Source: Amphiura filiformis
Taxonomy: Eukaryota > Echinodermata > Ophiuroidea > Amphilepidida > Amphiuridae
Direction of reading: 5' to 3'
Length of the DNA: 64,000 bases
Assembly (NCBI RefSeq): GCF_039555335.1
Contig: NW_027305509.1
Span: 248,001-312,000, forward strand
Each line of letters starts with the position of its first letter. Positions within the stretch are counted from its first letter, which is position 1. Below the pieces are notes generated by a model. That model saw only the letters and a program-made list of their open reading frames with translations. It made no database searches and was not told where the DNA came from. A program made the translations under genes and the position numbers. This document shows positions 1-50,118 of the stretch, in pieces.

Positions 1-82
1 TAATTCTTGATTACTATAAACCACACCTATTTAGGGCCTATACCTAAATACCAATGTACAGCTTTCCTTTACTGCCAATGTA

Positions 83-2267: not shown

Positions 2268-5200
2268 CTGGAACAAAAAATATGTCAACATGGATAAAAT
2301 CATGAGATCTTTGGATTTGAATTGGGAGTAGATGTCAGTAGCCCAAAGTCAAGGCAACATTTGGTGTTTACCAAGCTAAAAAGAAGATTCCCAGGGCAAT
2401 ATGGTTGATTTCAGCCTGGTAGAGGGAGCTGGCCAGCCCGGTAAGACCCAGCCCGCCTTATTCGCACATTCTGGTGTACAAAAATGTACCCAAGCTCAAT
2501 ATTGTTCACTACTGATTTGGAGCCAGTGGTCATAATCAATACTTACAGTGGGAAGTCCAATTGAATGAACGCAGCCTTCAATAGCATGACAATTTTGTGC
2601 ATACATTGCGCGATGTACGCCAGCGTGTGCGACTGTGCGTGAATAACGTGGAAGTGAAGCCAACCATGGCAATGCACTCTTGATTCATTAGCATTGTATC
2701 CAAGGTCGTGCGTTTGTGTGGTAGTTTGAAATACGCAATATTATGATCGTGATTGGAGCGAGTACAGCTGTTGAAAGCTGTGTTCATTCAACTGGAATTC
2801 CTACTATAAGTGCCTGTAACTAAAAGTGGTATTTTCTTTCATCATTTTCTTTCTCACCAAAAGGCCAACCTCTGTAAATGATAATCCTAGGAACACTTAT
2901 ATACCAATCGCTACAACCAACTACATCCTGCAGCTTATATGCCATGCAGCTTATTCACTAGATATTACAGTATATGCTTACCTTGTACTGTGCGTACCAC
3001 TACCACACGCCTCCTTCTTCTCTGCTTCACCACATAGAGCAGCATACCAAACATCATACCTAACACTATAATACCAATGGCTACAGACATAGCCACCAAC
3101 ATAGTACAGCTATGCTATGCAGCTTATACTCTACACATTACAGTATATGCTTACCTTGTACTGTGCGTACCACTACCACACGTCTCCTTCTTCTCTGCTT
3201 CACCACATAAAGCAGCATACCAAACATCATACCTAACACTATGACACCAATGGCTACAGGCATACCCACCCAAATAGTACAGCTATGCTATGCAGCTTAT
3301 ACTCCAGACATTACAGTATATGCTTACCTTGTACTGTGCGTACCACTACCACACGCCTCCTTCTTCTCTGCTTCACCACATAAAGCAGCATACCAAACAT
3401 CATACCTAACACTATAATACCAATGGCTACAGACATAGCCAACCACATAGTACAGCTATGCTATGCAGCTTATACTCCACACATTACAGTATATGCTTAC
3501 CTTGTACTGTGCGTACCACTACCACACGTCTCCTTCTTCTCTGCTTCACCACGTAAAGCAGCATACCAAACATCATACCTAACAGTATGACACCAATGGC
3601 TACAGACATAGCCACCCACATAGTACAGCTATGCTATGCAGCTTATACTCCAGACATTACAGTATATGCTTACCTTGTACTGTGCGTACCACTACCACAC
3701 GTCTCCTTGTTCTCTGCTTCACCACATAAAGCAGCATACCAAACATCATACCTAACACTATGACACCAATGGCTACAGACATTGCCACCCATATAGTACA
3801 GCTATGCCATGCAGCTTATACTCCACACATTACAGTATATGCTTACCTTGTACTGTGCGTACCACTACCACACGTCTCCTTCTTCTCTGCTTCACCACAT
3901 AAAGCAGCATACCAAACATCATACCTAACACTATGACACCAATGGCTACAGACATTGCCACCCACATAGTACAGCTATGCTATGCAGCTTATACTCCAGA
4001 CATTACAGTATATGCTTACCTTGTACTGTGCGTACCACTACTACACGTCTCCTTCTTCTCTGCTTCACCACATAGAGCAGCATACCAAACATCATACCTA
4101 ACACTATGACACCAATGGCTACAGACATTGCCACCCACATAGTGCCTGCATCCTCTACAAACTCTTGTGGTCCTACGTTGTCATTGTCAACATCCACCTG
4201 CCAGTTGTGGTCATCAAAATTATCAAAGATTGGTGGTAAAGTTGGAATTGGCCATGCATCAAAATTCACTGCAATAAATTCAAAAGTAGTCTTAGGTATG
4301 GAAACACAAATAGGCTGCACCAGGCCCGCGACACTCTGGAGCTAGTTTGAGGACATTACACATAACCATAACCAATCACAAAACAGATATATTTGTACAG
4401 ATGGAAACGAACCAATATATACATCCTGTAGCGAGTCACATGGAAATATAAAAATCAGGCTGGTTTGCACGATAATTTATTAATTTATATAAGAATCACA
4501 TCCATATTACATATGGTATGTGTACTGTCATAATGGTTCTGCATGACCATCATGTCATGGATAATTTTATTCAAGACTCACATTTTTGCTCAAGCTGTTT
4601 TTGCTGTCCTCAACTTTGGTGTATATTGCATGCATGGTACGTATAGGCCGTTTGTACTGAGTGTCTTATCTCATAGTATAAGATCTCTGGCTGCGCTCTC
4701 AAGGCCTTAGCCAGCCATACGTCTGCCCGTCTTTAAGACGGGCTTATCTAATTTTAGACTGGTAGATTTAATTTTATAGATATGACAGCTCTAAAACAGA
4801 TGATTTTAAGGGCATATGAACTTGTAAGGAAGGCAGTAGTGCCCGTGGGTGACATGTAAAGGCCAAATTAGGTCATTATTTGAACCCAGTGACCCTTCCA
4901 TGGGTATAGACACGCTGTATTATTTTTGAGGTTCAAATTTTGGTACATAGATTGGACAAGTGGTTTCTGATTTCTGGCTAAGACTCTTTTTAATTCTGGG
5001 TGCACTGTCTGGCTGTGATATTTCCCCGCTTGGCTACAACATGGGTGGATAAGCCTTTTGTGCCATAGATCAGAGAAGATGTAATGCATTACACCCAATT
5101 CACTGGGTCTTGGATATGGATCTCAAGATATGTGGTTACAACACACTATAAAAGCACAGCCAAATGCACATGTAATGAAAGACAGAGATAAAAAAAACTT

Positions 5201-8200
5201 TATCACCTTGGAGATCATCGGTCAATCAAACTTGATTGATCGGCACCAGATAAGTTGGCCTTCCTTTTATGCGCTATTAACCAATCAAGGATCGTAATCG
5301 ACAGGGACGTCAGACGCGATAAAGTCTTTTTATCTCTGTCTTTCATTATAGTAGAGCTAACCTTGAGTTGGCCTTGCCTGGCTCCACTCATAAGAGCGCA
5401 TCCAGAGCTGGGCGGCCCAGCTGGAGTGCACCCAAAAGAGGTAGTCTTTGTGATGTCAACGCCTCCATCTTGTGGGTACGGAGTGCCTTGTTGCTAAGAC
5501 CACCGTGTTGACTGAAGATGTGTGTCACGCGCTGCTAATTTTGCATAATCGGGGGCGTAATGTCTAACGCATGACATGCAGAACGGCAGTACCCACAAGA
5601 TGGCAGATCCCGGGGAAAAGGTTGACGGCCTCTATTTGTGCTCTTGCCTCATCAACTTAGATACCTAAAGAATATTGCCTAAATGTAGGCTAGCTACATA
5701 GTTCACTGGGTTGGATGGCACGTGCCCACCAATCTATCCCATAGGAAAATTGCCAACAGCTTGTGCCCCACCAATCAATGTGCCCCACCAATCGCATAGA
5801 TCTGTGGTTTGAAAGACAAAGGTACAGTCTTTATGCGATCTAAAAGAAATTCCATCCAAACATATATGGGGTCAAAGGTCAACTTTCATTACACACTGAC
5901 CAACCCTCGAATTTTGGAAAATTGAGTTACGATAATTATTACCTACAAACATATCATATACTGAAAACACAAGCATATATTATTTGGTTCCAAAGTTGTG
6001 TGATATGTATTCTCTTATTTTAGTGTTTTTTACTGCTGTGTATGTATTTCAGCTGGAATAACATAAAACCTCGTTTACAAGCAAATAGAGTTCTTCTGAT
6101 GAAAGCTAAATGATTCCAGGCGACATTATGGAGTTTGAGCAAATAAATTACAGATCCAAGCATATACAAACAAGTATTATTGTATGACCAACCTATTGTA
6201 TAAATTGCACTTGCTTCGTATTAACTACTCCCTATTTCAGAAAAATACAGACAACAAATTTTGTGGAATAAAAAAATATGATCTTGTTTTGCCAAATGAA
6301 ACATAGCTAAATCCTAATCCTTAAATAGTTAGTCCTAACTGGTGATAAACGAAATATTTCACTTTTTTTACCAATTTCTTGAAAAATGAGCCAAAAACAT
6401 GCATTTTGGCATGTTTTCTGACAATCAAGTCACAAAAATCACAGACTAGGAACAAGTCTAAGCATTCAAAATCTTGAGTAGATACCGAAATTTTGCTCTA
6501 ATTTTCACTTTTTTTGTTACTATATAATTAAATGGTTGGTTATATGAATGAAGCATGTCTTTTCCAAAAATTAGAATGCATAAACTGAAATTAGGCTTAG
6601 TACAAGTCTTTGGGCTTGATTGTCACAGCATACGAAAAACACCTTAAAAACGCATGTTTTGGCCCTTATTTCCAAAAATTGGCCAAATATTAAAATTTGA
6701 CTTTTATTGCTAGTTAGGACTAACTAAAGGATTAGGAATCAGCTATGTTTCATTTGGCAAAACAGGATAATATTTTTTTAATCCCAAAAAATTAGTTTCA
6801 CTATAATGCTTGTTGACGATGTTTTACGGTAGCCCAATAATAACTTACAGTCAGTGTCACACCTGAGGCCTACGTAACCGTTGGTACAAGTACAAAATGG
6901 TGTACCTAAAAGATATTCACATGTGGCACCATTATAGCAGTATCCTTCACAGGTCAATTCTGTATGCATGGAAAGAAGATTAAGTAGATTAGTAAACTGA
7001 CTCACACACTATACACCAGGCCCTCTCAACTGGCGCATGCGCCAAGTCAGTCAAAGTGCATGGCACACGGTAGTTTTAATAATTTTTTCACATAAATCTT
7101 GAACCCAGGGATGAAAGTGGCCTGAAGTGACTTGGCAGGAAAAGCCTGAAAAAGCGCGTAAATTTAGGCTATAAAGCCTCAAAACGGGCTGAACATAAAT
7201 AAAAGTGCGGAAATTTAGAGTAGCAAAAGGCCTGATATCAGGCAAGTGCCTGAAAACTGACATCCCTGTGAACCAAAAAGGAGTGAAAAATACCCAATCT
7301 TGGCCTTTAAAAAACCTTAAAATACAGGAGCTTTGTTTGTCTGCTAAACGTTTTGCTTATTACCGAATTTTGGTAACATGCATTTAAGACACATTGAAAA
7401 TAATAGAGAGGCGTGGTTTTATTATGCAGAGTAAGTTTCTGGTTATTTCTTGGGCAACCTAATTTTTACCTCAATGTTATTTTAGAAACATGTCTTCAGT
7501 AACTTTTGGTGATAAAAAAAACACCCTGTTCTACATACTTGCTTGGTGGTTGTCATTTTGTTTTCTGCTACAGGCTAAATGACTTTAAAAATCAGACCAA
7601 AATCTGAACATTTTTTTTAAATTGTTTGCAAATACATTTTGAAAACTTTCTGAATTTTTTTCAAAATATTTCCACTTGAGCCAAAAAACAACTGTCTTTA
7701 ATTTCTTACTGCTTTAAAAAAATCCACAAACCCCAACCAAAAATCTAGGTCAGTTGGGCCCATAAACACAGGTTTTATTCTTTGTGGCCTTATTCATTCA
7801 TTTTCATTTATTTGTTTTTTGGTGGTTTATTTTTTTCACTTTTCAAATAGCAAAAGACATAGAATACATACAAAATCATAATACAAGCAAGAGTGAAGGA
7901 ATCACAGGAAAGGCCAAAAAGAGGCCTGATGAAGTCTGTGATCCCTTGATTGGTTTTAACTCTCTGCACGCGGGTGTCGACTGCAGACGACAAGTTTCAA
8001 AAAAAATTTAAAAATTCAAAAATTTCAGAAATGTAAATTTTCATGACCATATTTGGAATCAGCATGAAAAATGCATGAAAATGAGTACAAACAAGCCTAG
8101 TATTGATTCAGTAGTTCTTAAGATAGCTCTTGATATTTTGAGAAAATATTTCAAAACTTGGAACTTTTTCCATTGAAGGGCATGGCTAGCACACAGAGCA

Positions 8201-11200
8201 TTAAATTCATCATTACGTACCTTTACATTCTCCATAGTATGCAACAGATACAATCTTTTGCAGTTGGCAGCTGAAACTTCTCAGCTCGCATAGATTGATG
8301 TGTGTGTTACCCTCTGTGTCACATATAGGGTCCAGGGTAATGGGACACCCTGTGTCACATTCACACCGGGGTCCCCTGAGATAGTCATCTACACATTCTG
8401 CTCCATACTGACATTCATGTCCCATTGTGGCACATGTTTCTGTTTGGGGTAAATAACAATGTATGTTTTAGTTAAAGGCATCACTTAGAAAAATAGATGT
8501 GAAAGGGAGAGTGTTAGTAACCAGTTGTAGTCCTTGGGAAAATAGCATGATTAGCAATGGGTTCACATCGGGTTCCCCCATTATAGAAAGCTACACATAC
8601 TTCTCCATGCGGACATTTATCACTCATCCTGTCACATGTAATTATTTCTGTTTGGGGTAAATAACAATGTATGTTTTAGTTAAAGGCATCACTTAGAAAA
8701 ATAGATGTGGAAGTAAGAGTGTTACTAACCAGTTGCAGTCCTTGGGGAAATGATGAATTTCATGGAAATGTGCATAAAAAGGATCATTTAGGCAGTACAA
8801 ACAAATTAGTTCGATCTTTCAATCGACCATATATGCTTGGTCAATCCTTATTATTTATGAAATCAATTTTGATCCTTATTATTTATGAAATCAATAAATT
8901 TACTATATTGTTAATTGTGATTACATATGAATCTATTTAAAATGTAATTGATCAATTTATCAGTAATTCTGATTAATTAGTTGATAGTTCATTAATTACA
9001 AGCATCGTAGCAGCATCGATGGTCGATCCAAAGATCAAACAAATTTGGATCTGTTGCCTTACATTGTGATCATTCATAAAACCCTGATCATGATTGAACA
9101 GATAGGTTATTTATTCTTACTCCATACACCCCCAATGGAAGACATGACCATACTCTCTAAAACATAAGGTGAGGACTCCACATGGGGTCACCTATTTAGG
9201 TAACTCCGTTTGAAATTCACACTGATGTGTGTGGGAGATTTAAGTGATGTTTTCTATAGGGGGTGTATGAATTTCAAATAGAATAGCCCAATGAGCTATT
9301 CCACTTGAAAACCACACCCCCTTTGAGGAATATTTGGAATTCCAACAGTTTTAGCCATTCCAGATCCAATCATTTTTATCCATTAACAGCTTGGTACAGA
9401 GATGCAGAGTCGGGTAAAACATCAAGCGTATGGATCAGATTCCAAATGAAACAATCTACAATCTGACCAACACCACCCCAATGGTTGCCAGAGTCAAGAT
9501 ATTCCCACCAACTCAAATTTCTTGTAATATCAGGCATAAGAATGATCATCCATGAAAAAACCTGAAAAGCAGTGCTGTACGGTGCTAAAACTGATTGACA
9601 AGCCAATGGCTCCTAACTTTATAAATTTAGGCGCCCAAATTTTGCTCCCAAGTAAGAGGCGCCAACTGCTCGAAGTCATTCTGCCACAATGGTTTAAATC
9701 TATGTTCAAGTTACTTCCATTTCCAGTTCCATGACCTTACATAACACCATTAGTACTAATCATTAATAGTATCAATAGCTGTTGGATTCCCTGATTTTAT
9801 TGTTTCATCCTCCTTCTCCTTGTTCCGAAAAAGTTCATCAAATTCAAAGTTCTTTTTGATTATGACGCCATCTTGAGTACTTTTAAAAAAAACAATCAAA
9901 ACCTTTGACCGATGATATACTATTTGCTGGCAATTAAAAGCTTAAATATAGTTGGTCGCCATTGGCGCCAGGGATTGAAGGTTTAGTCGCATCAGAAAAA
10001 ATCTAGTCACCAATGCGACTAAAATGATCGCAGCATACAGCACTGCTGAAAAGATTGAAAAAGCGCATGAAATTAGTGAGAAAAAAAGAAATTTCCTCAT
10101 GCCTGTATTTCATACATCTTCTAACAGAGCTTGTGAAAAAATGCCCTTTATATTCCACCACCAGTGCTGTACGGTGCAAAAACTGATTGAGGAGCCAATG
10201 GCTCCTAACTTTATAAATTTAGGCGCCCAAATTTTGCTCCCAGGTAAAAAATCTGAGGTGCCAATGTAAACTGAACAGCCACGTGTGTTCAATGTTCATA
10301 GCTGCTGTACTCTGATCTTCATATTCCCATTGAACGCTACATACTTCATACGCAGCATGTACAGTGTAGGCCTATATGTTTTCCATGAAGTCCCCATTGA
10401 GACATGATGATAAATGCATATTCATAGCATACATTCGTACTCTTGAATACTACGATTAAAAGCTTCAGCAGTTGGTCGCCATTGGCGCCAGGGATTAAAT
10501 ATTTAGTCGCCATTAGCAAAAATCTAGTCGCCAATGCGCCTAAAATGGTCGCACCGTACAGCACTGTCCACCACAAGGGAATATGAAACCCATGACCATG
10601 CATGCACACTGTACTTGCAGTATGTATAACACCTCCTGCAGCCAAACAAAATTGCTTCCCTAGCCCAAGATTACAGCAGTTGAAAAAAGCTTGTAGTCAC
10701 CTGCTCCACAGCAAACTGATGGTGATTATCATCACCCATAAACAAGGGGAAATGTGTGGTAGATATCAAATTGAACAGCTTAATTTACCTCTGTGGTGAA
10801 GCCAATCTTCAAATGGATTTCTTGTTGTTGTTGCTCCATACGTCAGAGGAATTAAAACTGCAATAAAAATTTGCATCAAAAATGGGTCAAAAATTGCATA
10901 ATTTTCAGGAAACTTGAAGGCATTGTATCATATCTTGGATCATCATAGGTATCAGAAAACAGCACAGAGCCTGTGCTAACTCGAGGTAGGTATAGACTAT
11001 AGGCAGTGTTCGAAATAAGTGCTTATATCCTCTTGTCCAAAAATCACTGGGGACAACCATATTGAGCTATATACTTATCCCCTGGACAACCACTATTTGG
11101 ATTCTTTGCACTCAAAAACATGACATTTATATTTTGGGGGCAACCAAAATATTTTGAGGACAAGCAGAAATGAATTCATGCTTTAGTTTAGTTTAGTTTA

Positions 11201-11256
11201 TCTCTATGTAATCACTCACCTAATATTAGCACTGGTAAACGGCACATGTTATTCAT
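1990..11256 (-). CDS. Single-pass membrane protein: signal peptide, follistatin-like module, EGF module, TM helix, PPxY tail (six exons)
   Basis: Coding exons on the minus strand are 11256-11220, 10857-10789, 8439-8221, 6959-6849, 4268-4020 and 2267-1990. All five introns are GT-AG and phase 1, and the sum is 963 nt, giving 320 residues plus TGA. Predicted layout: signal peptide about 1-20, follistatin-like module 38-107 with ten cysteines, EGF 112-142 with six, acidic Pro-rich stalk 143-188, membrane helix about 190-213, KQRRRRR stop-transfer at 214, cytoplasmic tail with PPPY at 295-298 and 314-317. Follistatin/Kazal plus EGF plus TM is the plan of tomoregulins (TMEFF), which have two follistatin modules. 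PPxY motifs usually bind WW domains such as those of NEDD4 ligases. A ligand, shed growth factor or receptor role is inference. Frames, phases and cysteine patterns agree across every junction, so the structure is well supported without transcripts. Confidence 0.85.
2268..2898. other. Intron 5, proximal part
   Basis: Unique intron sequence between exon 6 and the TM-exon array. I see no coding potential, RNA gene or transposon ends. Confidence 0.5.
2899..4138 (-). repeat. 173-bp tandem array of TM-half-exon plus splice donor (seven units)
   Basis: The same landmark (TAACAC/GTAT) recurs at 3061, 3234, 3407, 3580, 3753, 3926 and 4099: exactly 173 bp each time with no indel. The rightmost unit is the real 3' half of exon 5 with its donor; the six others lie in intron 5. 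Each unit contains, on the minus strand, the code for the membrane helix and Arg cluster, the intact donor GTACAAG|GTAAGC, and about 55 bp of intron. No unit has a stop in the coding part; the few differences are mostly silent or conservative. A degenerate part-copy precedes the array (about 2899-2975). Homology with exon 5 starts at the Met of MWVAM. Confidence 0.92.
4020..4268 (-). CDS. Exon 5: stalk, transmembrane helix and poly-Arg
   Basis: Acceptor TTTTGAATTTATTGCAG ends at 4269 and donor GTAAGC begins at 4019. The 249-nt exon is phase 1 at both ends. It encodes an acidic stalk (NFDAWPIPTLPP, then many Asp/Asn/Glu), a hydrophobic helix beginning MWVAMSVAIG, and KQRRRRR followed by VVVVRTVQ. 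The positive-inside rule puts the Arg cluster in the cytoplasm, giving type I topology with the signal peptide. The frame stays open upstream to about 4334, so an earlier acceptor is possible, but only this AG joins in frame with exon 4 behind a good pyrimidine tract. Confidence 0.85.
4269..5172. other. Intron 4, first part
   Basis: AT-rich intron sequence with no exon seen. A short stretch around 4826 (GGAAGGCAGTAGTGCCC) also occurs near 1927, a small dispersed duplication. Confidence 0.4.
5173..5348. mobile_element. Small MITE-like inverted-repeat element
   Basis: The left end TAATGAAAGACAGAGATAAA and the right end, its reverse complement (TTTATCTCTGTCTTTCATTA with slight differences), form arms of about 35 bp around about 110 bp. 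The ends sit on TA dinucleotides, which fits a Tc1/mariner-type MITE. It lies in intron 4. Confidence 0.6.
5349..6268. other. Intron 4, middle part
   Basis: No exon is seen. A 15-bp inverted repeat (CCATCTTGTGGGTAC near 5466, its complement near 5590) brackets a GC-richer stretch of about 110 bp. Confidence 0.4.
6271..6778. mobile_element. MITE with ~65-bp terminal inverted repeats (TA-flanked)
   Basis: The arms contain TTTTGCCAAATGAAACATAG at the left (about 6290) and the complement at the right (about 6745), extending into CCTAATCC and GTTAGTCCTAACT. Both ends are next to TA. A second, partial member lies at about 48240-48460, sharing the CATTTGGCAAAAC end and the GACTTT interior. The right end stops about 70 bp from exon 4. 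Confidence 0.7.
6849..6959 (-). CDS. Exon 4: EGF-like module
   Basis: Acceptor CTTTCCATGCATACAG, donor GTAAGT at 6848. The 111-nt exon is phase 1 at both ends and encodes residues 109-146. The six cysteines have spacing C-x3-C-x5-C-x8-C-x-C-x8-C, the EGF pattern, with NGATC after the second Cys and GYVGLRC at the end. A phase-1 exon holding a whole EGF module is the classic shuffling unit. The GYxGxRC end followed four residues later by Leu resembles EGFR ligands such as TGF-alpha. No calcium-binding consensus precedes the first Cys. Confidence 0.88.
6960..8220. other. Intron 3
   Basis: About 1.26 kb, AT-rich, with many homopolymer T and A runs. No exon or transposon ends are recognised. Confidence 0.5.
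8221..8439 (-). CDS. Exon 3: follistatin-like (FOLN + Kazal) module
   Basis: Acceptor TTATTTACCCCAAACAG, donor GTACGT at 8220. The 219-nt exon is phase 1 at both ends and encodes residues 36-108. Ten cysteines (38, 45, 51, 61, 63, 67, 75, 86, 93, 107) follow the follistatin-domain order: a short EGF-like hairpin (CQYGAEC, then PRCECDTGC) and a Kazal part (PICDTEGNTHINLC, then SFSC and YYGEC). The usual VCGSDGxTYxNxC box is changed to ICDTEGNTHINLC. Kazal modules in this setting usually bind growth factors rather than inhibit proteases. Confidence 0.88.
8438..8760. repeat. 208-bp local tandem duplication
   Basis: Sequence starting CTGTTTGGGGTAAATAAC at 8440 recurs at 8648 and stays alike for about 110 bp (to CCAGTTG(T/C)AGTCCTTGGG), with single-base differences only. 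It carries the intron side of exon 3 and its decayed copy. Confidence 0.85.
8561..8647 (-). pseudogene. Decayed partial copy of exon 3
   Basis: The acceptor and about 100 bp of intron upstream of exon 3 are repeated 208 bp away (8440 matches 8648). The copied exon start reads TCDRMSDKCPHGEVC, then GGTRCEP, in the same phase as exon 3, but the Kazal half is absent and the frame runs into a stop without a usable donor. The sequence is a truncated FOLN piece made by local tandem duplication, now probably skipped. Confidence 0.65.
8761..9117. other. Intron 2, AT-rich part
   Basis: Very AT-rich with a short internal duplication of TTATTTATGAAATCAAT at about 8850 and 8878. Nothing else is recognised. 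Confidence 0.4.
9118..9320. repeat. Palindromic ACACCCCC repeat family member
   Basis: Contains CCATACACCCCCAATGG near 9122, its complement AGGGGGTGTATGAATTTC near 9257, and GAATAGCCCAATGAGCTATT. The same inverted modules (ACTCCCCCTGTGGAAG, CAAATGGAATAGCCC) recur at 47600, 54430-54680, 57830-58260 and 63050-63243. It is probably a short non-autonomous inverted-repeat element. Confidence 0.65.
9570..10045. mobile_element. hAT-type MITE, copy 1
   Basis: The ends CAGTGCTGTACGGTGC and GCATACAGCACTG are inverted. A perfect 8-bp direct repeat CTGAAAAG flanks it (9562-9569 and 10046-10053), and the CAGNG start fits the hAT superfamily. No open frame of note lies inside the 476 bp. It lies in intron 2 about 115 bp from a related copy. 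Confidence 0.9.
10162..10566. mobile_element. hAT-type MITE, copy 2
   Basis: Same family as 9570-10045, with better preserved 16-bp ends CAGTGCTGTACGGTGC/GCACCGTACAGCACTG and a perfect 8-bp target duplication TCCACCAC (10154-10161 and 10567-10574). It is 405 bp. Internal blocks such as GTTGGTCGCCATTGGCGCCA are shared with copy 1. The two have different targets, so they are separate insertions. Confidence 0.92.
10789..10857 (-). CDS. Exon 2: end of signal peptide and linker
   Basis: Acceptor ATTTTTATTGCAG, donor GTAAAT at 10788. The 69-nt exon is phase 1 at both ends and encodes residues 13 (split) to 35: LIPLTYGATTTRNPF, then EDWLHHR. The hydrophobic start continues the signal sequence of exon 1, and cleavage after YG (about residue 20) is likely. 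The short exon is supported by phase, splice sites and the sensible signal peptide it completes. Confidence 0.75.
11220..11256 (-). CDS. Exon 1 (first coding): signal peptide start
   Basis: ATG at 11256-11254 in the context CACCATGA, followed by MNNMCRLPVLIL, then a phase-1 donor G|GTGAGT at 11219. Joined to exon 2 it makes an n-region (R6) plus a Leu/Ile/Val core ending in TYG, a standard signal peptide. An AG after TTGTTATTTATACAG (11263-11277) just before GACACCATG suggests that the 5' UTR continues in an upstream exon. Confidence 0.75.
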
Positions 11257-12239
11257 GGTGTCCTGTATAAATAACAACATGCAGAGAAACAGATTTAACA
11301 TTAATAGCAATGTTAAGGGTAGACGAGGTATTGTTGGTCGAAGCAACCTAAAAATCTATTTTTTTCTAATTTATTACTAACTGCATGCACGCTCTTGCAT
11401 CGACATTTCTTAATATTTTTAAGTGATGTTTCGTTAGTATACTCCCTAGCATCGAGCCAGGAGTCTACAAATTTATGCCCCTACATATTTAATAGGGCAT
11501 TATACAAACAGTTCATGTTTGTAAAGAAAGTCATTTTTATCATGACAAAATAATCTCAATTCAAAACATTTTGAAGACAGATTTTCTCTGATCCTCATTT
11601 CGCCTAACATGTTCAAGACAAGCACGTATAGGCCTAATTGGTGAGTCATCAGCATGACAATTCAATCTCAATTCAAAACAATTTTGAAAAGAGATGGCTT
11701 TAAATACACATAACGCTCAACATGTTTAACACATCCACATATAATAATCATGTTATGCTTTTTCTAAGCGTTATTTATAGGCATAAGGATGAAATATAAA
11801 TGATACCATTCATAGAGCTTACTCATGATGATATCAGATCTCCTTCTTAACTCCTGGTCAGGGATATTTCTCTTTGATTTAATATTCACCATATGGTAAA
11901 TATTTTTCATCGTTTTATCTTCTCTGTAAGAGCATTCCTTACAGAACGGGCCATATTTTATTAATATTAATTAGCCCTCCTAAGGGATTTAAAAGTATCC
12001 CTCCACTAAACCAATTAGCAGGTTTTTTCAAATTAGTTACTCACATCAGACAAAATGAAGAAGTTTTGCAACTTTTTCCTCTCTTCGCTCCATTATGTGT
12101 TGAAAGGACCATACATAGGGCTTTTAGCACTTTTGAAAGAGCGACGTGATATTATACCGTAATACAAGGAATTACATAGGGTTTTACAAAAGGTTGAATT
12201 ATAGGTATATGAACACCAAAATAATTCTCCCTGTAAACC
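11257..12239. other. Upstream of the gene; probable 5' UTR intron
   Basis: No coding exon or transposon ends are recognised. Some weak internal duplication is seen (TCTCAATTCAAAACA near 11552 and 11666). Confidence 0.4.
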
Positions 12240-13620
12240 CCCCTCTTTTTATGAGACACTGAAACTGAATAAAACTATTCCACAAGCATGCTCTTTTTTC
12301 AGTCCATATTCGAGAAATCGAAAATAGACTTTTCCCTTTTACAGGGTTTTTATTTTATTATTATATTTTTTATCTTTCCATAAGGCTAGATTAAAGGTGT
12401 GAAAATACCACAATCAACCTGTCTACCTGTCGTCCATCTTTTTCTGAGAAAATGAAGAAGGAGATGTAACCTTTGCTTTCTTGCCCTGCGAAGTGGCGCT
12501 TTTTATATTGGAACTCACTTGGAGTGTTTAGTCGTCAGATAGAGTCGCTGGCCTCGGCCTGCCGCCCTGCTGGCCTTGCTGGACATCAGAACGTTGTCAA
12601 CGGTTTTTTAGAAATTGGAGGGTTTTGCTTTTTGCATGCCCTATTTCTGGTCCAAATTTGAGATATCGAAAACGGACCTTTCCCTTTTATAGGAATTTCT
12701 TGTTTTTGCAAAAGGTTTATTTTTATTTTTACCTTACCAAAAGGTAGATACAAAGGTATGCAAATACCACAATTAACCCCTACGCCAGGCGCCCCTCTTT
12801 TTCTGGGATATTGAAAAAGACAATTGGATAGGCCTATTCACACTTTTACCCATATTCGAGAAATCGAAAAGGGACCTTCCCTTTCACAGGGATCTTTTTA
12901 ATCTTCCAAAAGGTTAATTTTATCTTTTCACCTTTCCAAAAGGTGAATACAAAGATATTTTAATACCATAATTAACCTACACGCCTACCCCCCTTCTTTT
13001 TCTGAGAAATTGAAAAAGAAAACCCGATAGGCCTACCCTCGTGGTATCCAAATTCGAGAAATCGAAAAAGAACTTCCCCTTTTATAGGGAATTTTTTTAT
13101 CCTTCCAAAGGGTTAATTTCATTTGTATTTTTCCAAAAGATGAATACAAAGGTATGTTCATACCTAAATAAACCTCACTACCAGTCCCCCCTCCTTTTCG
13201 GAGAAATTGAAAAAGACATCGTATCCGGCATATCCTACATTTAGTCCAAATTCGAGAAATCTGAAAGGGACTTTTCAAAAAATTCATTTGAATTTTTCCA
13301 AAAGGTTTATTCTTTTTTTATATCTATCAAGAGATAGATATAAAGGTATTTTTACACCACAGTAAACCTGAATACCTGCTCCCCCCCTCTTTTTCTGAGA
13401 ATTTGAAAAAGACTTCTCCATTGGCTCATCTTTTTCCTAGTCCAACTTCGAGAAATTGAAAATGGACCTTTCCCTTTTAAAGGGATTTTTTTCATCTCTT
13501 TTTCTGAGAAATTGAAAAAGATAACTCAATAGGCCTTCCCTTCATTTTGTCCAAATTCGAGAAATCGGAAATGGAATTTTCCCTTTTATAGGAACTTTAT
13601 TCATCTTGTTGAAAATGAAC
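12240..13620. repeat. ~200-bp tandem satellite, about seven units
   Basis: The block CCAAATTCGAGAAATCGAAA recurs near 12304, 12651, 12841, 13048, 13246, 13440 and 13549, mostly 190-207 bp apart, each followed by CCCTTTTATAGGG and CCAAAAGGTT, and by CTTTTTCTGAGAAATTG. The first gap is longer because a unit contains extra sequence around 12440-12620; the last unit is shortened. Units are clearly diverged, so the array is old. Confidence 0.85.
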
Positions 13621-14643
13621 TTCTTTTCCCTCTTTGTAAGGGAAACTCTCTTCACATTTCCTAAGACAGAATAAAGTTTTAAAATGTTTTTATTCCAGGA
13701 CGGAATAAAACGGATTCCACTGTGGAATAAAGTTGGTACTAAAGGTGGAGTGTACCCTATCTATTTTTCCTACACCAGAATATATTTCACGGAATAAATG
13801 CATTTTTATTCCCCATAAGAAAAAGCATTATGTATAAAGGCAGCCGATAGGGCTACCTTTAAAACCCCCTAAGAAGGTATGAAAATACCAAAAGACTTTT
13901 CCTCTGGATCTTTTAGCAGGTTCTGTTCATTCCCGTCCTTTCTTTTCAAAAATTAACACCTTGATGTTTTGCAAAAGTTAGTTCTACAAATCGTATACTT
14001 TGCAAACTTGCTTTTATTGTTGTTAATGAGTTATGTACGTTTTACAATTTAAAGTGTTGTTGTTTCAGCCCTCTTTACAACGTAACTCAAGAACCGCAGC
14101 ACCTATAAAAGTATATATCTGTGATATTTTCATTCTTCTACAGGCTCGCTATGAATTTAGCAATGCAGTTTTTGCCAAAGCTCACTACCATTCGTAAGAT
14201 GAGCACTGTGAACTACTAAATCACAACAGTTAAATAATTAATACCGTAACCTTTAACAAGTACATGTTACAAATTTGTTTGTATGTAGCCCAACAAGGCC
14301 CAAGGAAGCAATATTGAGAATTCAAGGGTGCAGTGTGCACACGGGTACCGCTAGTCCGACACCCTTCTAGTACATGACACGCCGCTAGTCCGACACGCCG
14401 CTAGTCCAACAACACAAATTCCCTATACCCGGTAGCGGTAAGACAAATTCCAGAAAATGAAAGGCATATACCCAAGACCTTGGTTTAACATTACTTTTGC
14501 TTCTAAGTTCTATTGAACTGCTAGCAACCCAATAATGCAATTACTTTACTTACTGTTCAATTAGCTGCCTTAGATTCATAATTTAAGATACCGGTATTTG
14601 AGAAAATAAAAAATTGGCGTCAAAGTCATCAAAGAAAATGTGA
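13621..14643. other. AT-rich spacer
   Basis: Contains several GGAATAAA stretches (13690-13800) and a short triple repeat of CCGCTAGTCCGACAC (14345-14405). No gene is seen. Confidence 0.4.
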
Positions 14644-15046
14644 GTGACAATGCTACGCAGCCAAAACCAAATAGACCAGCTTGAGAAGATCCAAGGAAGG
14701 GCTATCCGATTCATATCCGGCAACTATCAAAGGGAGGCTAGCGTTACTGCAATGCAACAAGAACTTGGCATACCTACACTTGAAGAAATAAGGAGAAACG
14801 CTCACCTCACCATGTTCTACAAAGTCACAAATCAACTCATATAGCCATACCCATGCCAAACTATTTCAGAACCAGAACTACTCGTAGCTGCAGTCAGCAT
14901 CATCGCTTCACACGACTCGGCTCATCATCAGACACATACAAGCACAGTTTTTTTCCGAGGACACTACGGGACATGGGATGCGCTTCCGCAAATCACCATT
15001 GAACTGCCCACTGTGGAGCAGTTCAAGGAAGCCATCGAAGCCAACT
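14644..15046 (+). pseudogene. Non-LTR retrotransposon (CR1/L2-like LINE) ORF2, C-terminal remnant
   Basis: QIDQLEKIQGRAIRF, then YQREASVTAMQQELGIP and LTMFYKVTNQLI match the region after the reverse transcriptase of CR1/L2-type LINEs (LExIQRRAARFV, SSVTAMLxxLGWPSL, RLTMFYKI). A stop follows at 14842-14844. Beyond it, YKHSFFPRTLRD in one frame and WDALPQ, then LPTVEQFKEAIEAN, in another complete the usual ending, so at least two frame changes have occurred. The final stop at about 15045 is the natural ORF2 end. No catalytic domain is retained. Confidence 0.75.
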
Positions 15047-24437: not shown

Positions 24438-24725
24438 GTTTGTCCGTTTTCATACACAATACACAGTGTTCTCACCATTGACGCGCGACCTTTACAAATA
24501 GTATTGTTAGAAGTAGCTAGAAGTATAGGTATTTGCCTAGTTAACATCACTGCGTGAAAAATAACCGGCCAATATTTACAAACTGCAGTTACTGTCCGTT
24601 TTCCTATGCACAATACACAGTGCTCTCACCATTGACGCGTGACCTCTACAAATAGTGTATGTTAGAAGTACTATTGCATTTGCCTAGTTAACATCACTGT
24701 GTGAAAAATAACCGGCCAATATTTA
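24438..24725. repeat. ~155-bp tandem duplication
   Basis: Two units, each with CACAATACACAGTG, CTCACCATTGACGCG, TTTGCCTAGTTAACATCACT and ending AATAACCGGCCAATATTTA. The second unit ends at the LTR element, so the duplication may predate that insertion. Confidence 0.85.
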
Positions 24726-24728
24726 AAG

Positions 24729-25654
24729 TGTAACCCACCCTCCAAGTCGGGTTATAATAACTATTTGTGGTCTGAGAACCTGTGTTAGAAACCTTTGCTA
24801 ATGTTGTCTTTCTTTGTTTAATTAACTATTTGGGATTTAACTTTGTCTTAATTAATGTCGTAGCTCTGTTTATCAATGACTTCTAATTTACATGCTGATC
24901 CATCACCAGCCATGTTAATTCCAGCATTAGTCAGGTAAATTGGATTTGAGGATTCAGATGTCTTTTAAGTATATTCAGGTGAAAAAACCACACCCTCTTA
25001 AGTAGGCATTGGCTTCCAATTTTAACATGTTTAAAGAGCTACTTAAGATTCATCTATGCATGTAGGTTTAAGATTAGACATGTTTGATACTCAAGTTGAA
25101 GTGACATTTCCAAGTAGATTAGTTGTACTTGGAAATCTGTTAAGTTTGGTTTATTGATTCTAAATAATAGGGTTTGATGAGTTTTAAGTGTTTTGTAATT
25201 TTGTAGGACTGAATCATGCAATTAGTAAGTCTCGGATAGAGTAATTGATAAGGGGTGGAATTAAATAAGTTTAGGCCTCTGTATCACTTGTGTTTTCCAT
25301 TAAAGTATATGATTATAATTAACTGTAAAGTGTAAGTTTAAAGTTGGTTAAAGAGATGGTCAGTGATAGCTGATCTGATTATTAAAATATTTTGGGTTCT
25401 AAAGCACTTCCATCATAGCTTCCATCAAGGCAACATCTATCGTATCCATCTAGCTGATATCCATCCAAAGGACCAGTATATATAATAATTATCTGCATTT
25501 ATATCGTGTGTTTACTGTTTTGCGTCATATTTCTTTACTTGGACTTCGCCAGAATAACGCCCCTACGACCAATTGTTGAATTTTATTTTTAAAACTTTAA
25601 CTTAACCAACCAACCAGTATCACTTAAAGTGATCAGAAGTTAGAGTTTGTTACA
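24729..25654 (+). repeat. 5' LTR
   Basis: 926 bp, TGTAACCCACC to GAGTTTGTTACA. A TATATATAA near 25477 could be its promoter TATA box. It is nearly identical to the 3' LTR once the inserted MITE is removed. Confidence 0.95.
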
Positions 25655-25655
25655 T

Positions 25656-25675
25656 TGGCGCCCAACCGGTGGGGC
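25656..25675 (+). other. Primer binding site (tRNA-Lys type)
   Basis: TGGCGCCCAACCGGTGGGGC starts one base after the 5' LTR. TGGCGCCCAAC is the start of primer sites matching the 3' end of tRNA-Lys (known for lentiviruses, spumaviruses and gypsy). Further match needs the host tRNA. Confidence 0.85.
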
Positions 25676-25754
25676 TAAGTGAGTTGTCACTTGGCGAACT
25701 GAGATATCAACATTTTGGTCAGGGCACCTACGACCCGTATTTTGGATATCCATC

Positions 25755-26765
25755 ATGCCTGATTTACACGCACGGCTAGGACAGTTGGAGAGAGAAGTTA
25801 GATATCTTCGTCAACAGATCAACAGCAACCATTTCAACCGTCCTCGACAGCGGTCATCTATTCCACAGCAACGTGATGTTATTGCCTATCGTGTTACTGG
25901 TCACGTAAAGTGGTTTAATGTAAGGCAAGGATATGGTTTCATTACTCGCGATGATACTTGTGAAGATGTTTTTGTGTACAAACGAGGTATCGCAAAGAAC
26001 AATCCAGCTAAATTGTTTCCCAGTGTTGGAGATGGTGAGGTTGTTGAGTTTGATATAATATTTGTACCTGGACGTACTCCGGAAGCAGACAATGTTACTG
26101 GACCTAATGGTGCTTGTGTGTTGGGAAGTGAACACTCCCCCAATATTGTTGCTTATGAAGATAATATCCCATCAGACTCCACTGCATTAAGTAACAGTTG
26201 CAGTAATGATGGAGACAAGAACAATGATTGTGAAGAACTGACTGACAATAACACTGGTGAAAACGGTAAGACTACTGCTGATAATCTTCATGATCAGTGT
26301 GATCACAAAAGTGTATGCGATGTTGAACCTGAAATTTGCAAGGAGAATCATAGTGAACATGATGAATGTGTAGCACCTCAAGAAAGCAGTGCAGAACTTA
26401 ATGTGGTATCATGTCAGCAGTTAAACATTCATGTGGATGAACATTTAAAAAGATTAAAACTTGAAGCTGAAAACATCTCTTCAGCGCCTCACCAGTTACT
26501 CGAGAAATTTATGTTAGAATTCTTGCAATTTCAGCAAAAATATCTGCAATTTTATAGTACTATGCATGTTCATCTTGATTCTTGTGATATACCAACTTCA
26601 TCAAATATGTCTAAGTCACCATGTCCACCTGAAGCTGAAGACATCTCTGCAGCGACTCGCCAGTTAGTCCAGAAATTATCAGGCGAATTCATGCAATTTT
26701 CAGAAAAATGCCTGCCATTTTATTTTTCTATGAAGGTTCATCTTGATGCATCTGACGCTGATTAG
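25755..26765 (+). CDS. Y-box-type cold-shock-domain protein carried by the LTR element
   Basis: An intact intronless frame of 336 residues, starting 100 bp after the primer site. Residues 1-25 look like a short coiled coil ([12 protein letters not shown]). Residues about 47-125 are a cold-shock domain: [13 protein letters not shown] (RNP1) and [15 protein letters not shown] (RNP2, His changed to Tyr), then [11 protein letters not shown] and ADNVTGPNG, closest to animal Y-box proteins such as YBX1. Residues 130-230 are acidic and Asn/Asp/Cys-rich and lack the alternating basic/acidic tail of YBX1. Residues 237-279 and 292-334 are a duplicated C-terminal module. The family binds single-stranded RNA and DNA and packages mRNA. 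Binding of the element's own RNA is inference. The start is the first ATG after the primer site. GC3 and codon use look ordinary. Confidence 0.9.
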
Positions 26766-27837
26766 TGGCCCCATTTGAAGGTATTGTTTCAGGTACGATG
26801 ATGGGAAACTTTGACAACATTGATCACATCAAGAGCTGAAGTGACTGTATGACTTTAAATTGACATGATAATGGACTATGGACTTATTGTGTGAATAAAT
26901 TAAATGTCTTTAATTCAAGCATGGATTCTGAAATTGTTAAGCTATTATGATGAAGTATATTGTGGCGTTTTCATGAAGACAGTCAGTGTTTAGATTTTTT
27001 GTTTCCAATTTAACAAATACATGAGTTGGTAAGTAATTGGCATTGTTTGTTATGAAGTTGACCAAATTTATGCACAATTGGGAAAGAGTTTGATTTCTGA
27101 TGTTCCTTTGATTATTATGGTAAACGTGTCTCATTATTTGTGTGATATAATCTTTTGGTATTCATTAGCGGTTATCGCATGTTGAAAATTGTAGGCCATA
27201 AGATAAAGTGAGTTTCATGTGATGTGGCACACTGTGTTAAGAGTCTTGAAATTTAGTGATTTGTGAGATATTTCACTCAGCCATATTGGTAGACATGCAT
27301 CATGTTTGTCCATGTAGTGCACGACAGGACAAAACTTAGTAGATTCATGATGTTTGGTTGTGTTTTTCAAATTTTTCCTTTGATGCCATCGGAAAATATG
27401 ACTGGCAGTGTTTTAGAGTTGAACTTAATTAACTTGAAGCTATTTTGTTAAATCATGTACCTGTGTGTTTAGCTAAAATCACAGTATAGAGCTTGATTTA
27501 TATACATGTAGTTTGCCACATTTACTGAATGTTGTAGTTGTATAAATTGTACTCTCGAAGGAGTAGTCAATTTCGAAGCACAAAATGAGTTTGGGTTGAA
27601 ATTAAAACTGTTTACAACTGCACAATTCACATTAATTTGATCAAAATAAGCATGAGTTCTTTTTAGACCGAAGCAGATGATATATGTGCATGAACTAGCT
27701 ATCAGTTCATGAGATATTGATTCAAACTTTCTGCAGTAGTTGTAAATTTTGTGTGTAGTTAATTGGTGTGTTTAATTGAGAAGATTTGTTTAAAAAAAAT
27801 CAATCCAGTCAAGTTTGATGTTATGATTTTTTTCTTT
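26766..27837 (+). other. Untranslated interior of the LTR element
   Basis: About 1.07 kb after the cold-shock frame. An AATAAA lies near 26896. No second frame or known domain is seen; it may hold packaging or structural signals inherited from the parent element. Confidence 0.5.
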
Positions 27838-27851
27838 AAAAGAGGGGAGAA
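27838..27851 (+). other. Polypurine tract
   Basis: AAAAGAGGGGAGAA directly before the 3' LTR; it would prime plus-strand DNA synthesis. Confidence 0.85.
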
Positions 27852-29321
27852 TGTAACCCACCCTCCAAGTCGGGTTATAATAACTATTTGTGGTCTGAGA
27901 ACCTGTGTTAGAAACCTTTGCTAATGTTGTCTTTCTTTGTTTAATTAACTATTTGGGATTTAACTTTGTCTTAATTAATGTCGTAGCTCTGTTTATCAAT
28001 GACTTCTAATTTACATGCTGATCCATCACCAGCCATGATTCCAGCATTAGTCAGGTAAATTGGATTTGAGGATTCAGATGTCTTTTAAGTATATTCAGGT
28101 GAAAAAACCACACCCTCTTAAGTAGGCATTGGCTTCCAATTTTAACATGTTTAAAGAGCTACTTAAGATTCATCTATGCATGTAGGTTTAAGATTAGACA
28201 TGTTTGATACTCAAGTTGAAGTGACATTTCCAAGTAGATTAGTTGTACTTGGAAATCTGTTAAGTTTGGTTTATTGATTCTAAATAATAGGGTTTGATGA
28301 GTTTTAAGTGTTTTGTAATTTGTAGGACTGAATCATGCAATTAGTAAGTCTCGGATAGAGTAATTGATAAGGGGTGGAATTAAATAAGTTTAGGCCTCTG
28401 TATCACTTGTGTTTTCCATTAAAGTATATGATTATAATTAACTGTAAAGTGTAAGTTTAAAGTTGGTTAAAGAGATGGTCAGTGAAAGCTGATCTGATTA
28501 TTAAAATATTTTGGGTTCTAAAGCACTTCCATCATAGCTTCCATCAAGGCAACATCTATCGTATCCATCTAGCTGATATCCATCATAAATTAAAGGACCA
28601 GTATATATAATAATTATCTGCATTTATATCGTGTGTTTACTGTTTTGCGTCATATTTCTTTAGAATAACGCCCCTACGACCAATTGTTGAATTTTATTTT
28701 TAAAACTTTAACTTAACCAACAAACCAGTATCACTTAAAGTGATCAGAAGTTAGGCCCTTCACAATTGATTCTTAGTTTCCTGTTTCATGGTTGAAAACA
28801 AGGGATGAGGCGACTTTTAATTATTAATTATCTATTATTTTCTTTATTTTTAAGCAAGTGGTCGGAACCTACATCAACCCGTTTTCACAAGGAACATGCA
28901 TTTAATTATTTTACAACTATGTTTGATTTTATACATAAGCAGGGTTCGAATTCGTTTAAAAATTTGCGTAGCAGTTTTTGGCTAATTCATCATAATCAGG
29001 ATACTTCTATATATATAAAGCACTATGAAAAGTGCTATACAAATGCAAAATTGGGTAGCAGTTACTTCAAAATGTGGAGCAAACTGCTATGCGATACAGC
29101 CGAATTCGAACCCTGTACATAAGTAATGGTACAGTTATGTTCTTTGTTTATCCATCATTATAGTTGATATGATCAATAGAAGTCATTTTTAAAAGTTATT
29201 TTAAAAGAGAACATCCAAAATAAAAATAAAATAATTAAATATTTTGTAATTCTCTACTTTGGACGCGGGCGGGAAACAGGAAACTAAGAATTAATTGTAA
29301 AGGGCCTTAGAGTTTGTTACA
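27852..29321 (+). repeat. 3' LTR, interrupted by a MITE
   Basis: Matches the 5' LTR from TGTAACCCACC through to 28753, then continues from 29307 to GTTTGTTACA after the MITE at 28754-29306. Confidence 0.95.
28754..29306. mobile_element. PIF/Harbinger-like MITE inserted in the 3' LTR
   Basis: The ends GGCCCTTCACAATTGATTC and, inverted, GAATTAATTGTAAAGGGCC are flanked by TTA on both sides (28751-28753 and 29307-29309). The 5' LTR shows the empty site AGAAGTTAGAGTTTG. The 3-bp TTA duplication and GG(G)CC start fit PIF/Harbinger. An inner inverted pair (GGGTTCGAATTCG near 28943 and CGAATTCGAACCC near 29100) suggests a second hairpin. No transposase is seen. Confidence 0.9.
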
Positions 29322-29325
29322 AAAG

Positions 29326-29473: not shown

Positions 29474-31030
29474 CCAGATAAAGCAGACTAAACCCCAAAT
29501 AAGGCGCCTTAAGGGGGGTCGATCTTTTGTGCGTAATTATAGAGGGCCAGGGGATTCACTCTATCATTAAAAAATATATTTGAAGAAGTCAAAGAGCCCT
29601 AGGAATAAAAACTGTAGTGTAATTCACGCCAGATACAATTTCTTTATACGACAAAATTAATTTTTGTAATCGATCAAAAAACAAACGTTTTATATCAATT
29701 TTAAATTTAGCCTGAATCCGTAAATATGGTACCTCTCGCCCTTTTTTAGGTCAAGGCTATTTTTACCATTATGCGGCGAACCATTGTTGAAGCTATTTCA
29801 CATACATGTACAGAACATTCTGGAGAAAGAATGAGGACATATAGTATTGAAATATCTTTTGTTGATTTCGAATGATAATGTCATGAATTCGTAAATTTTA
29901 AGGTGAAATTCCTAAAACCAAAACAAAACATTGCGACGCAGATAATTCCCGACTTACGCAATTTCATCATCACATCAGTGTCTTTATTATTTGTTTGAAA
30001 CCTTTCCCAAACGTTCGTGCTATTTATGCATAAAAACGGCTAATCTATCTTTACAAAACGCGTCTTTTTTAGTAAACAAAAGCCTAAAGATGGCATTATG
30101 AGATTCATCTTTTATCATTACACTCCTCTGCTCAACTGTCACGGTGGCCGAGGGGTAAAGCGCTAGACGCGTAATCGAAGGAAGTTGAGAATCGCTGGTT
30201 CGAATCCCAACGAAGCCTGTGGAAACTTTTTTTTCTTCAAAATTCATGATCGTATTCCGAAATGAGTCACTTGTCGGTAAATCATATCGTATCCTTAACC
30301 CTAAATAAGGAACATAAACCCCAAAAAAGGCATTAAACCCCCACCCCAGGTGCCTTAACTCTAGATAAGGGTTGTTAACCCCAGATAAGGGTCGTAAACT
30401 TCAGATAAGGCATCGAAACCCAAGATAAGGCGCCTTAACCCCAGATAAGAGACGTAAACTCAGATATGGCAGTCTAAACCCCAGATAAGGCGCCGTCGGG
30501 GGTTTACTTCTCTTATTTTAGGTTTATGTTCCTTATTTAGGGTTAAGGCGCCTTATTTGGGGTTGGGACTGGTTTATAGATTGCCATATCTGAGTTTACG
30601 TCTCTTATCTGGGGTTAAGGCGCCTTATCTTGGGTTTAGATGTCTTATCTGTTTACGACCCTTATCTGGGGTTAACGACCCTTATCTAGAGTTAAGGCAC
30701 CTTATGTGGTGTTTAGATGCCTTATATCTTTGGTTTATGTTCCTCATTTAGGGTTAAAGCGCCTTATTTGGGGTTTGGACTGCTTTATCGGTGGTCTACG
30801 TCCCTTATCTGGGGTTACGGCGCACTATCTGGGGTTTAGATGCCTTATCTGGGTTTAGACTGCGATATGCTAAGGTTAAGGCATCTTAGCCACAGGTAAG
30901 GAACGTAAACCCAGGATAAGGCCTTCTAAACCACAGGTAAGGCGCCTTATCCCTAGATAAGGGATGTAAACTCAAGATAAGGCAGTTTAAACCCCATATA
31001 TGGGACATGAACCCCAGATAAGGCGGAAAT
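29474..31030. repeat. 20-bp AGATAAGG satellite with orientation switches
   Basis: Units such as AACCCCAGATAAGGCGCCTT recur every 20 bp (GATAAGG at 30364, 30384, 30404, 30424, 30444). They point forward from about 30290 to 30495, reverse (CCTTATCTGGGGTTAAGGCG) from about 30500 to 30872, and forward again from about 30880 to 31025. A few units also lie at 29474-29515. About thirty units in all. Between 29520 and 30285 lies other sequence including a tRNA-like stretch. Confidence 0.88.
30138..30222 (+). pseudogene. tRNA-Leu/Ser-like sequence (tRNA relic or SINE head)
   Basis: GTCACGGTGGCCGAGGGGT (A box) and GCTGGTTCGAATCCC (B box) are spaced as in long-variable-arm tRNAs. The acceptor and anticodon stems do not pair well, and no CCA-side match is seen, so it is probably a degraded tRNA copy or the head of a SINE. 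Confidence 0.6.
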
Positions 31031-48826: not shown

Positions 48827-50118
48827 GTCTGAGCAAGCAGGAGAATCCGGCCACCTCTACATTTGTCAAGTCCCTTGGCATATATAATGTATGCAATTCG
48901 GCCGATGGTTAATGCATAGGAGATCACGGCCGCTGACCGGTGTTGCATGTTGAGTCTTGTCCCGGCCACCGCCGTCGGAAATTAACTTTCGGTTTTGGGG
49001 GATGGAGTACGAGTTAGAATAAGAATAAGAATAAAAAAAGTGTATTAGATTGTTTGAAATGTTAGATAGCGGCGGGCTGGCACAGATGATGCTATCTCTA
49101 TGTTTGTGTTGCTATGGCGCAGGGAACTGGAGAGAGGTAAACCTAATAATGAGTTGCTAGCTCTGTACGGAGATGAGGCTGAAGAGGGGGTTATATGGTC
49201 ATCATGTTTGGCAATGAGGAAATCAGATCCTTATGGATCATGGATTAGCCTAGATAATGATAGATAGATTGATCAATCGGATTTTATCATACTATAGGCC
49301 GGGACTATACTTTAGGTAGGGGGGAGTCCTTTCCAGACAAATTTTGTGAAATAAATAATAAATAAATAAATAAATACTCATTGGGAATTATTTCAATAAC
49401 TTGGCATATGGTGGATTGCGATGCCCCGATTGCGAGCGTGGCATTGAGCGTGAGACCGTTACGTGTGATGAGCGGTGGAGTTACAAGTTGGATTGTCATC
49501 ATGGTCTTGAAAATGGTATCGTACTGGTACATCTACATGTCCGGGGGCACTCAACTTTAGAAGTGACAGGTATGTGCCTTTGCCCCCAGGTGCATTGTAA
49601 TACCAAAGCAAAGTTTAGATCTTTGACAACAGTTCTAATGATCACACATTAATAAAGGAGCAATCACTATTTATGCCAGGGTGGAGGGCAGATGATTTTC
49701 ATATATTTTCGCACAAACATTTTGCATCCCCCCTCATATTGGAGGAAAAATTTCATGTCCCCCTTGAATCCTCCATTCCTTGTATATAATTTCAGGTCCC
49801 CCCTCCAATATTAAATTTCATGTCCCCCAACCATCACCCCTAAAATCCTCCACCTCCCCCCCTGTGGCCCCCATGCCCCCCCCTGTGTAACTCCCTTAGA
49901 CAAGTTTACTGCCACCACAAGAGATTAAGACTAAGAGTCCAGATTTGAGGTTTAAAGATTATGTACCGGTACCCAAAGAGTAGGCCTACCAACTCCCCCT
50001 GTGTGTAATGCTACATATATGGTTTATTCCTCATGGAGGGCAAATAGTGTACTTAGGGCGTTTTCCAGTAAGAGCCCCAAGTCGATTGATAATTTGAATC
50101 ACAAGCTCAAGTGTTGCA
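48827..50118. other. Spacer with a GC-richer open stretch
   Basis: At 49395-49540 both strands carry long open frames in an otherwise AT-rich region, but splice sites on either strand are weak and no protein family is recognised. Runs of CCCCCC at 49830-49890 are low complexity. Confidence 0.3.

Follow-up and report, generated by a model that had tools for sequence, protein, structure and literature searches.

A stretch of 64,000 nucleotides from the ophiuroid Amphiura filiformis (contig NW_027305509.1, positions 248,001–312,000; hereafter the window) carries a long terminal repeat (LTR) element of about 4.6 kb at window positions 24729–29321. We lean towards reading it as a young copy of a non-autonomous LTR element from an old family, whose first gene, in the gag position, encodes an RNA chaperone derived from a Y-box protein. 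An earlier note on this DNA had described a non-autonomous LTR element with an RNA-binding protein of the Y-box type as its only detected gene. The present analysis supports that description, and the upstream extensions of two related proteins, P0144 and P0145, strengthen it.

Structure and age of the element

The element is bounded by paired TG..CA LTRs and a short target duplication, with a primer-binding site 3′ of the 5′ LTR and a polypurine tract 5′ of the 3′ LTR, as in LTR retroelements. All four hallmarks named in the earlier note, including a duplication of 4 bp, were located. Its parts, together with the miniature inverted-repeat transposable element (MITE)-like sequences inserted in it, are as follows.

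24725–24728, no strand: left target-site duplication, AAAG
24729–25654, plus strand: 5′ LTR, TGTAAC...GTTACA, 926 bp
25477, plus strand: TATA-like box within the 5′ LTR
25656–25676, plus strand: primer-binding-site-like sequence TGGCGCCCAAC-CG-GTGGGGCT, with a 2-nt interruption, partly covered by the P0144 and P0145 extension matches
25677–25754, plus strand: leader, matching the translated extensions of these two relatives
25755–26765, plus strand: sole detected gene, for a 336-aa protein with a leucine-heptad helix (residues 4–22), a cold-shock domain (CSD, residues 48–116) and an acidic tail
26459–26587 and 26627–26755 (overall 26459–26755), plus strand: in-frame tandem duplication in the protein tail, 78% identical
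26766–27837, plus strand: 3′ part of the internal region, without Pfam match
27838–27851, plus strand: polypurine tract AAAAGAGGGGAGAA
27852–29321, plus strand: 3′ LTR, interrupted by an insert
28754–29306, no strand: MITE-like insert in the 3′ LTR, 553 bp, with inverted ends GGCCCTTCAC.. and a TTA duplication
28940–29115, no strand: second MITE-like element inside the first, with 15-bp perfect ends CAGGGTTCGAATTCG and an 8-bp duplication TACATAAG
29322–29325, no strand: right target-site duplication, AAAG

Except for two bases, TGGCGCCCAAC at 25656–25666, followed by CG and then GTGGGGCT, resembles a tRNA-Lys primer site. The assignment to tRNA-Lys, also made in the earlier note, is presumptive and refers to the general tRNA-Lys 3′ end, not to a tRNA of the host.

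Over 896 aligned bases of the larger piece the two LTRs show 3 substitutions and five gaps, one of these gaps at the cut end; the 13 bases of the piece beyond the MITE-like insert show no substitution. The insertion is therefore young, as the near-identity of the LTRs had been taken to mean before. The outer MITE-like insert, which we take to be of the PIF/Harbinger type, entered the 3′ LTR after the element's own insertion. The inner one, presumably of the hAT type, may already have sat in the outer one before the latter moved. A similarity search at E 1e-3 found no second copy of the element within the window.

Two repeats lie close to the element. An imperfect tandem duplication of about 150 bp occupies 24452–24725, its second copy ending at 24725, where the target duplication of the element begins. 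At 30297–30857, units of 20 bp resembling AACCCCAGATAAGGCGCC form an array in which both orientations occur.

The single gene and its protein family

The internal region of about 2.2 kb has one long frame, 25755–26765, encoding 336 residues; it is open from 25683, for 360 codons. Among 300 Markov sequences, each 2,194 bp long and read in six frames, the longest open stretch was 211 codons, so the frame is far longer than expected by chance. Its ATG is the only one between the TATA-like box and position 25760, a placement relative to that box with the transcription start site putative. The RNA of 25500–25760 folds more stably than its shuffled versions (z −2.5), 2 of 200 shuffles being equally good.

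Residues 48–116 match the CSD of Pfam (PF00313, E 8.3e-16) and carry the ribonucleoprotein (RNP) motifs of the Y-box type; the closest solved structure is that of human YBX2 (E 7.2e-28). Pfam applied to all six frames of the internal region, with stops as X and E up to 1, returned the CSD alone and no gag, pol or reverse transcriptase. By the same measure the element lacks the gag and pol of an autonomous LTR element. The intact 336-residue frame and the lack of gag and pol, both noted earlier, are thereby confirmed. Outside the element, the scan for retroelement genes covered six open reading frames and one frame of window positions 1–15000, and none of these gave a Pfam family above its cut-off.

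The product had been called a Y-box protein, and for the CSD this name holds. For the rest it does not. The tail is acidic (isoelectric point (pI) 4.5, net charge −24), not the long basic C-terminal region of Y-box proteins, and the leucine-heptad helix and a loop signature are additional. Judged by its sequence, the window gene is assigned to a distinct protein family and not to the plain Y-box proteins.

The family was delimited from a search over 5.8 billion proteins (625 matches) and a profile search (3,069 matches), the best 120 of each being examined as a list. Besides P0001, 39 relatives (23 + 16) were inspected, and family members were set apart by eye on the N-terminal helix, the GRTPEA-type loop or the acidic tail. 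The window protein has the whole proposed signature, namely N-terminal leucine heptads, a CSD with a GRTPEA-type loop, and an acidic tail. Two members, P0013 and P0157, are recorded under Amphiura filiformis. The tails of nine measured members have a pI of 4.1–5.4, compared with 10.1–11.4 in three Y-box proteins. The heptad pattern fits most of 17 N-termini; P0152 lacks the anchor residue pattern, and at the chosen anchor the fit is poor for P0008, P0010 and P0013. On the RNA face, 22/22 members retain W, F and F, and the fourth contact is H or Y (Y in the window protein), at positions that we take to correspond to the contact residues of YB-1.

The CSD tree that the earlier note had in mind came out in favour of a separate lineage. 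It was built from 66 domains (72 cut out, 6 left out) and few columns. The 22 chosen family CSDs form one clade, with support 99/98, against 44 others, a comparison set without the host's own Y-box genes; the clade lies among the animal Y-box domains. When the loop columns are removed the 22 remain one clade, with an SH-aLRT of 80. The nearest sister of the clade is the CSD of P0148 (96/90). P0148, from Artemia franciscana, and P0005, P0006 and P0009 are unusual in being two-CSD proteins.

The earlier note had spoken of a gene captured or evolved by the element. A recent capture is hardly likely, because the tree joins the protein to others of its kind and not to a Y-box gene. The form such a capture would take is the transduction of a host Y-box mRNA, as in an oncogene-carrying retrovirus, and it would explain an intronless frame whose CSD is up to 65% identical to the listed animal Y-box proteins. 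It is at odds with the clade, with a head, loop and tail unlike those of Y-box proteins, and with the leader and gene being shared together in two relatives. We regard transduction as largely refuted and very improbable.

The structure of the longer relatives was assessed from the AlphaFold model of P0014, which has a helix at residues 2–27, a CSD barrel, an acidic middle part of low confidence and a confident helical C-terminal domain. The best matches of this model in the PDB are the CSDs of YBX2 and YB-1 in RNA-bound structures. The C-terminal domain folded alone has a mean pLDDT (predicted per-residue confidence) of 84.9 and a pTM (predicted template-modelling score) of 0.83. Structure comparison, made also with a retroviral or Ty3 capsid fold in view, gave it no clear match. 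The domain comprises about 190 residues in P0007, P0013, P0014, P0016, P0021, P0140 and P0149, and the alignment of these seven has 25 invariant columns, including CC and HxH, which may form a metal site. It was not detected in the tail of the window protein, whose local scores against the seven domains lie within those of shuffled sequences (41 to 473 of 500 shuffles reach them).

Copies were also compared at the protein level, in six pairs that are not independent. In four of the six near-copy pairs the head and CSD changed less than the tail (for example 1/119 against 29/142, p 9e-8; the highest p value among these pairs was 0.037). Within the window protein, the two halves of the tail duplication differ at 20 codons, all nonsynonymous, with a nonsynonymous divergence (dN) of 0.31 and a synonymous divergence (dS) of 0.19. 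Because four of six pairs spare the head and CSD and the tail duplication has dN above dS, constraint seems to act on the head and CSD but not on the tail.

A passenger frame, encoding nothing that works and open merely through the youth of the insertion, would fit the absence of purifying selection in the tail duplication. It would also fit the differences between P0145 and P0002 at 18 of 119 head and CSD places, and the divergence of P0144 from its near-copies shortly after the CSD. It accords poorly with the sparing of head and CSD in those four pairs, and with a head and CSD kept across divergent members down to every RNA-contact aromatic. Such a passenger seems improbable to us.

The leader shared with two relatives

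Among the relatives are two groups of near-copies, P0002/P0004/P0145 and P0011/P0014/P0140/P0144, whose members are 81–100% identical in local alignment. The predicted proteins P0144 and P0145 start upstream of the usual MPD start, by 24 and 29 residues, respectively. Both extensions match the translated primer site and leader of the window element with a score of 42 each. Control stretches as long as the extensions, 4,234 in all and taken from both strands of the window, score 36 at best, so that none reaches 42. The matches fall in different frames, WRT..STF in one and FGQGTYD in another, so the likeness to the leader lies in the DNA and not in a coding region.

The extension matches suggest that in further branches of the family, as here, the gene probably follows immediately on the primer site of an LTR element. 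As far as sequence can tell, the leader match is the strongest evidence for this placement, and P0144 and P0145 would accordingly appear to lie in LTR elements themselves. Because their extensions match the window primer site and leader, the gene is likely to be in the gag position elsewhere and not to be a recent capture from a host.

Several points weigh against reading the element as one of an old family with an RNA chaperone in the gag position. Taken by themselves, the residues over the primer site (GLSE, RGAK) give no significant match; the whole leader does. P0144 and P0145 are assigned to LTR elements through their upstream extensions, and those putative elements could hold the CSD gene only or bear gag and pol as well; the hosts of both are likely to be different from that of the window. 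The family rows entered the tree after being picked by eye, and support without the loop columns is modest. By identity, among the matches listed, the window CSD is as near to Y-box proteins (65%, P0019 and P0070) as to the family (65–66%, best P0007); the window protein is grouped with the family on account of the tree, the head and the loop, not of identity. In the copy comparison two pairs, both with P0145, have no significant excess conservation of the head and CSD (p 1.0 and 0.27), and the changes in the window tail duplication count on the same side. The structural model is that of P0014, not of the window protein. Finally, cis action, oligomerisation and RNA binding are properties that we infer.

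The same position of the gene is open to another explanation. The autonomous members may carry the gene as an extra first frame in addition to gag and pol, and the present copy would then be a deletion derivative that lost gag and pol and retained its opening frame along with the two LTRs. Such an additional frame would be expected directly behind the leader, where the gene lies here and, by the extension matches, probably does in P0144 and P0145. Two long-frame relatives are on contigs of 57 and 79 kb. Extra frames beside gag and pol are on record from plants (PMC7264820) and from rotifers, there as ORF3 (PMC5408684). On the other side, Pfam detects neither gag nor pol remnants in the 1.1 kb that follow the frame, a result with which a clean deletion is still compatible. 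We hold a deletion derivative to be possible but rather unlikely.

Possible function and relation to known elements

For a non-autonomous element of an old family with a chaperone gene in the gag position, the following course can be proposed. The leucine-heptad helix would form dimers or trimers, and the CSD would grip single-stranded RNA. The acidic tail, predicted to be disordered in the modelled relative, might repel other RNA or protein. Translated from the RNA of the element itself, the protein would assemble on that RNA as it is made, with a preference for acting in cis. It could mask, stabilise, protect or export the element RNA, and it could help primer annealing or packaging, like nucleocapsid or the ORF1 protein (ORF1p) of long interspersed nuclear elements (LINEs). 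Gag particles, reverse transcriptase and integrase would be supplied by an autonomous element whose machinery accepts these LTR ends and this primer site.

Y-box proteins bind retroviral genomic RNA, so a Y-box copy of its own could be useful to such an element. An RNA-handling protein in an LTR element has a parallel in Cer1, from which a protein needed for nuclear export of the genomic RNA is reported (PMC10309623).

A broader proposal, which we put forward tentatively and with some doubt, is that animals harbour a lineage of LTR elements lacking gag. An RNA chaperone with a coiled coil, derived from a Y-box protein, would there replace the RNA coating done by Gag and be the sole encoded protein; it would tag its own transcript in cis while the element lives as a parasite on enzymes that other LTR elements supply. 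The C-terminal helical domain seen in longer relatives would then serve assembly and be a new domain of that sort.

Non-autonomous LTR elements are usually seen as empty passengers. If the proposed function is true, an element that keeps one RNA-chaperone gene where gag would lie, as part of an old protein family, would mean that the RNA-coating step can be worth owning while the enzymes are borrowed. A cellular mRNA-masking domain would have become the packaging protein of a retroelement, and cis-preference in LTR elements could be tested through one small protein.

The known non-autonomous types, terminal-repeat retrotransposons in miniature (TRIMs) and large retrotransposon derivatives (LARDs), resemble the window element in having LTRs, a primer site, a polypurine tract, no gag-pol and a need for a helper. 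LARDs are non-coding. The window element differs from both types in its 4.6 kb, its 926-bp LTR and its intact conserved gene. TRIMs are reported from bivalves; their size is below 1 kb, and those of bivalves had no clear primer site (PMC6934838). By this size limit, the window element with its 336-aa gene is no TRIM.

Extra domains have been gained by the LTR elements Vesta and Juno of bdelloids, by an orchid Ty3/Gypsy element with an RNA-demethylase domain, which likewise acts on RNA, and by the aORF elements of plants. The extra frame accompanies gag and pol in rotifers (ORF3, PMC5408684), in the orchid (PMC9289625) and in plants (PMC7264820), whereas the window gene is the sole one detected and is in the gag position.

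The animal Y-box proteins (YBX1/2, ypsilon schachtel) share with the window family the CSD sequence, the CSD fold, as modelled in a relative, and the RNA-contact residues. The window family differs in the acidic tail, the N-terminal leucine-heptad helix, and an extra loop residue with the GRTPEA-type motif.

LINE ORF1p and retroviral nucleocapsid are early retroelement products, and ORF1p combines an oligomer-forming helix with an RNA-binding domain. The window protein is likewise expected to be an RNA chaperone, an analogy of function and not of membership. It has a CSD and not an RNA recognition motif or zinc knuckle, and its LTR element is without enzymes of its own. In replication-defective transducing retroviruses and in maize Bs1, a host-derived gene between the LTRs replaces all or part of gag-pol and is moved by a helper. 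The window element also has a host-derived gene between LTRs, but those captures are recent and the window gene belongs to a divergent clade with a shared leader.

The papers listed in the literature search, including ones pairing 'cold-shock' with 'LTR retrotransposon', as judged by title or abstract opening and with Repbase and Dfam outside the search, held no LTR element with a CSD gene. The main text of a survey of mollusc LTR elements (PMC6238403) is without the words 'cold', 'ORF' and 'non-autonomous'. An entry for such an element may exist in Repbase or Dfam under an inconspicuous name. We class the window element with a known type, the non-autonomous LTR elements that have acquired a gene; it is unusual in that the gene is for an RNA chaperone, is in the gag position and belongs to a family of its own.

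Relatives were also sought in other collections. The primer-site pattern gave 0 matches in IMG/VR. A profile scan of IMG/VR gave 19 loci with 31–43% identity and tblastn E values no better than 1e-10, which were taken for phage or bacterial cold-shock genes. The GTDB genomes gave 302 relatives; the 79 loci kept all had bacterial or archaeal titles. A leader 15-mer occurred at 26 loci, with TACGA just behind it in 0/26, GGGGCTAAG before it in 0/26 and TGGCG before it in 5/26, and was read as a chance match.

Elsewhere in the window, 79/96-bp units form a tandem array at 50117–51632 that contains frames staying open for 277 and 168 codons, and a 173-bp unit is repeated seven times in tandem at 2938–4143 with 95% matches.

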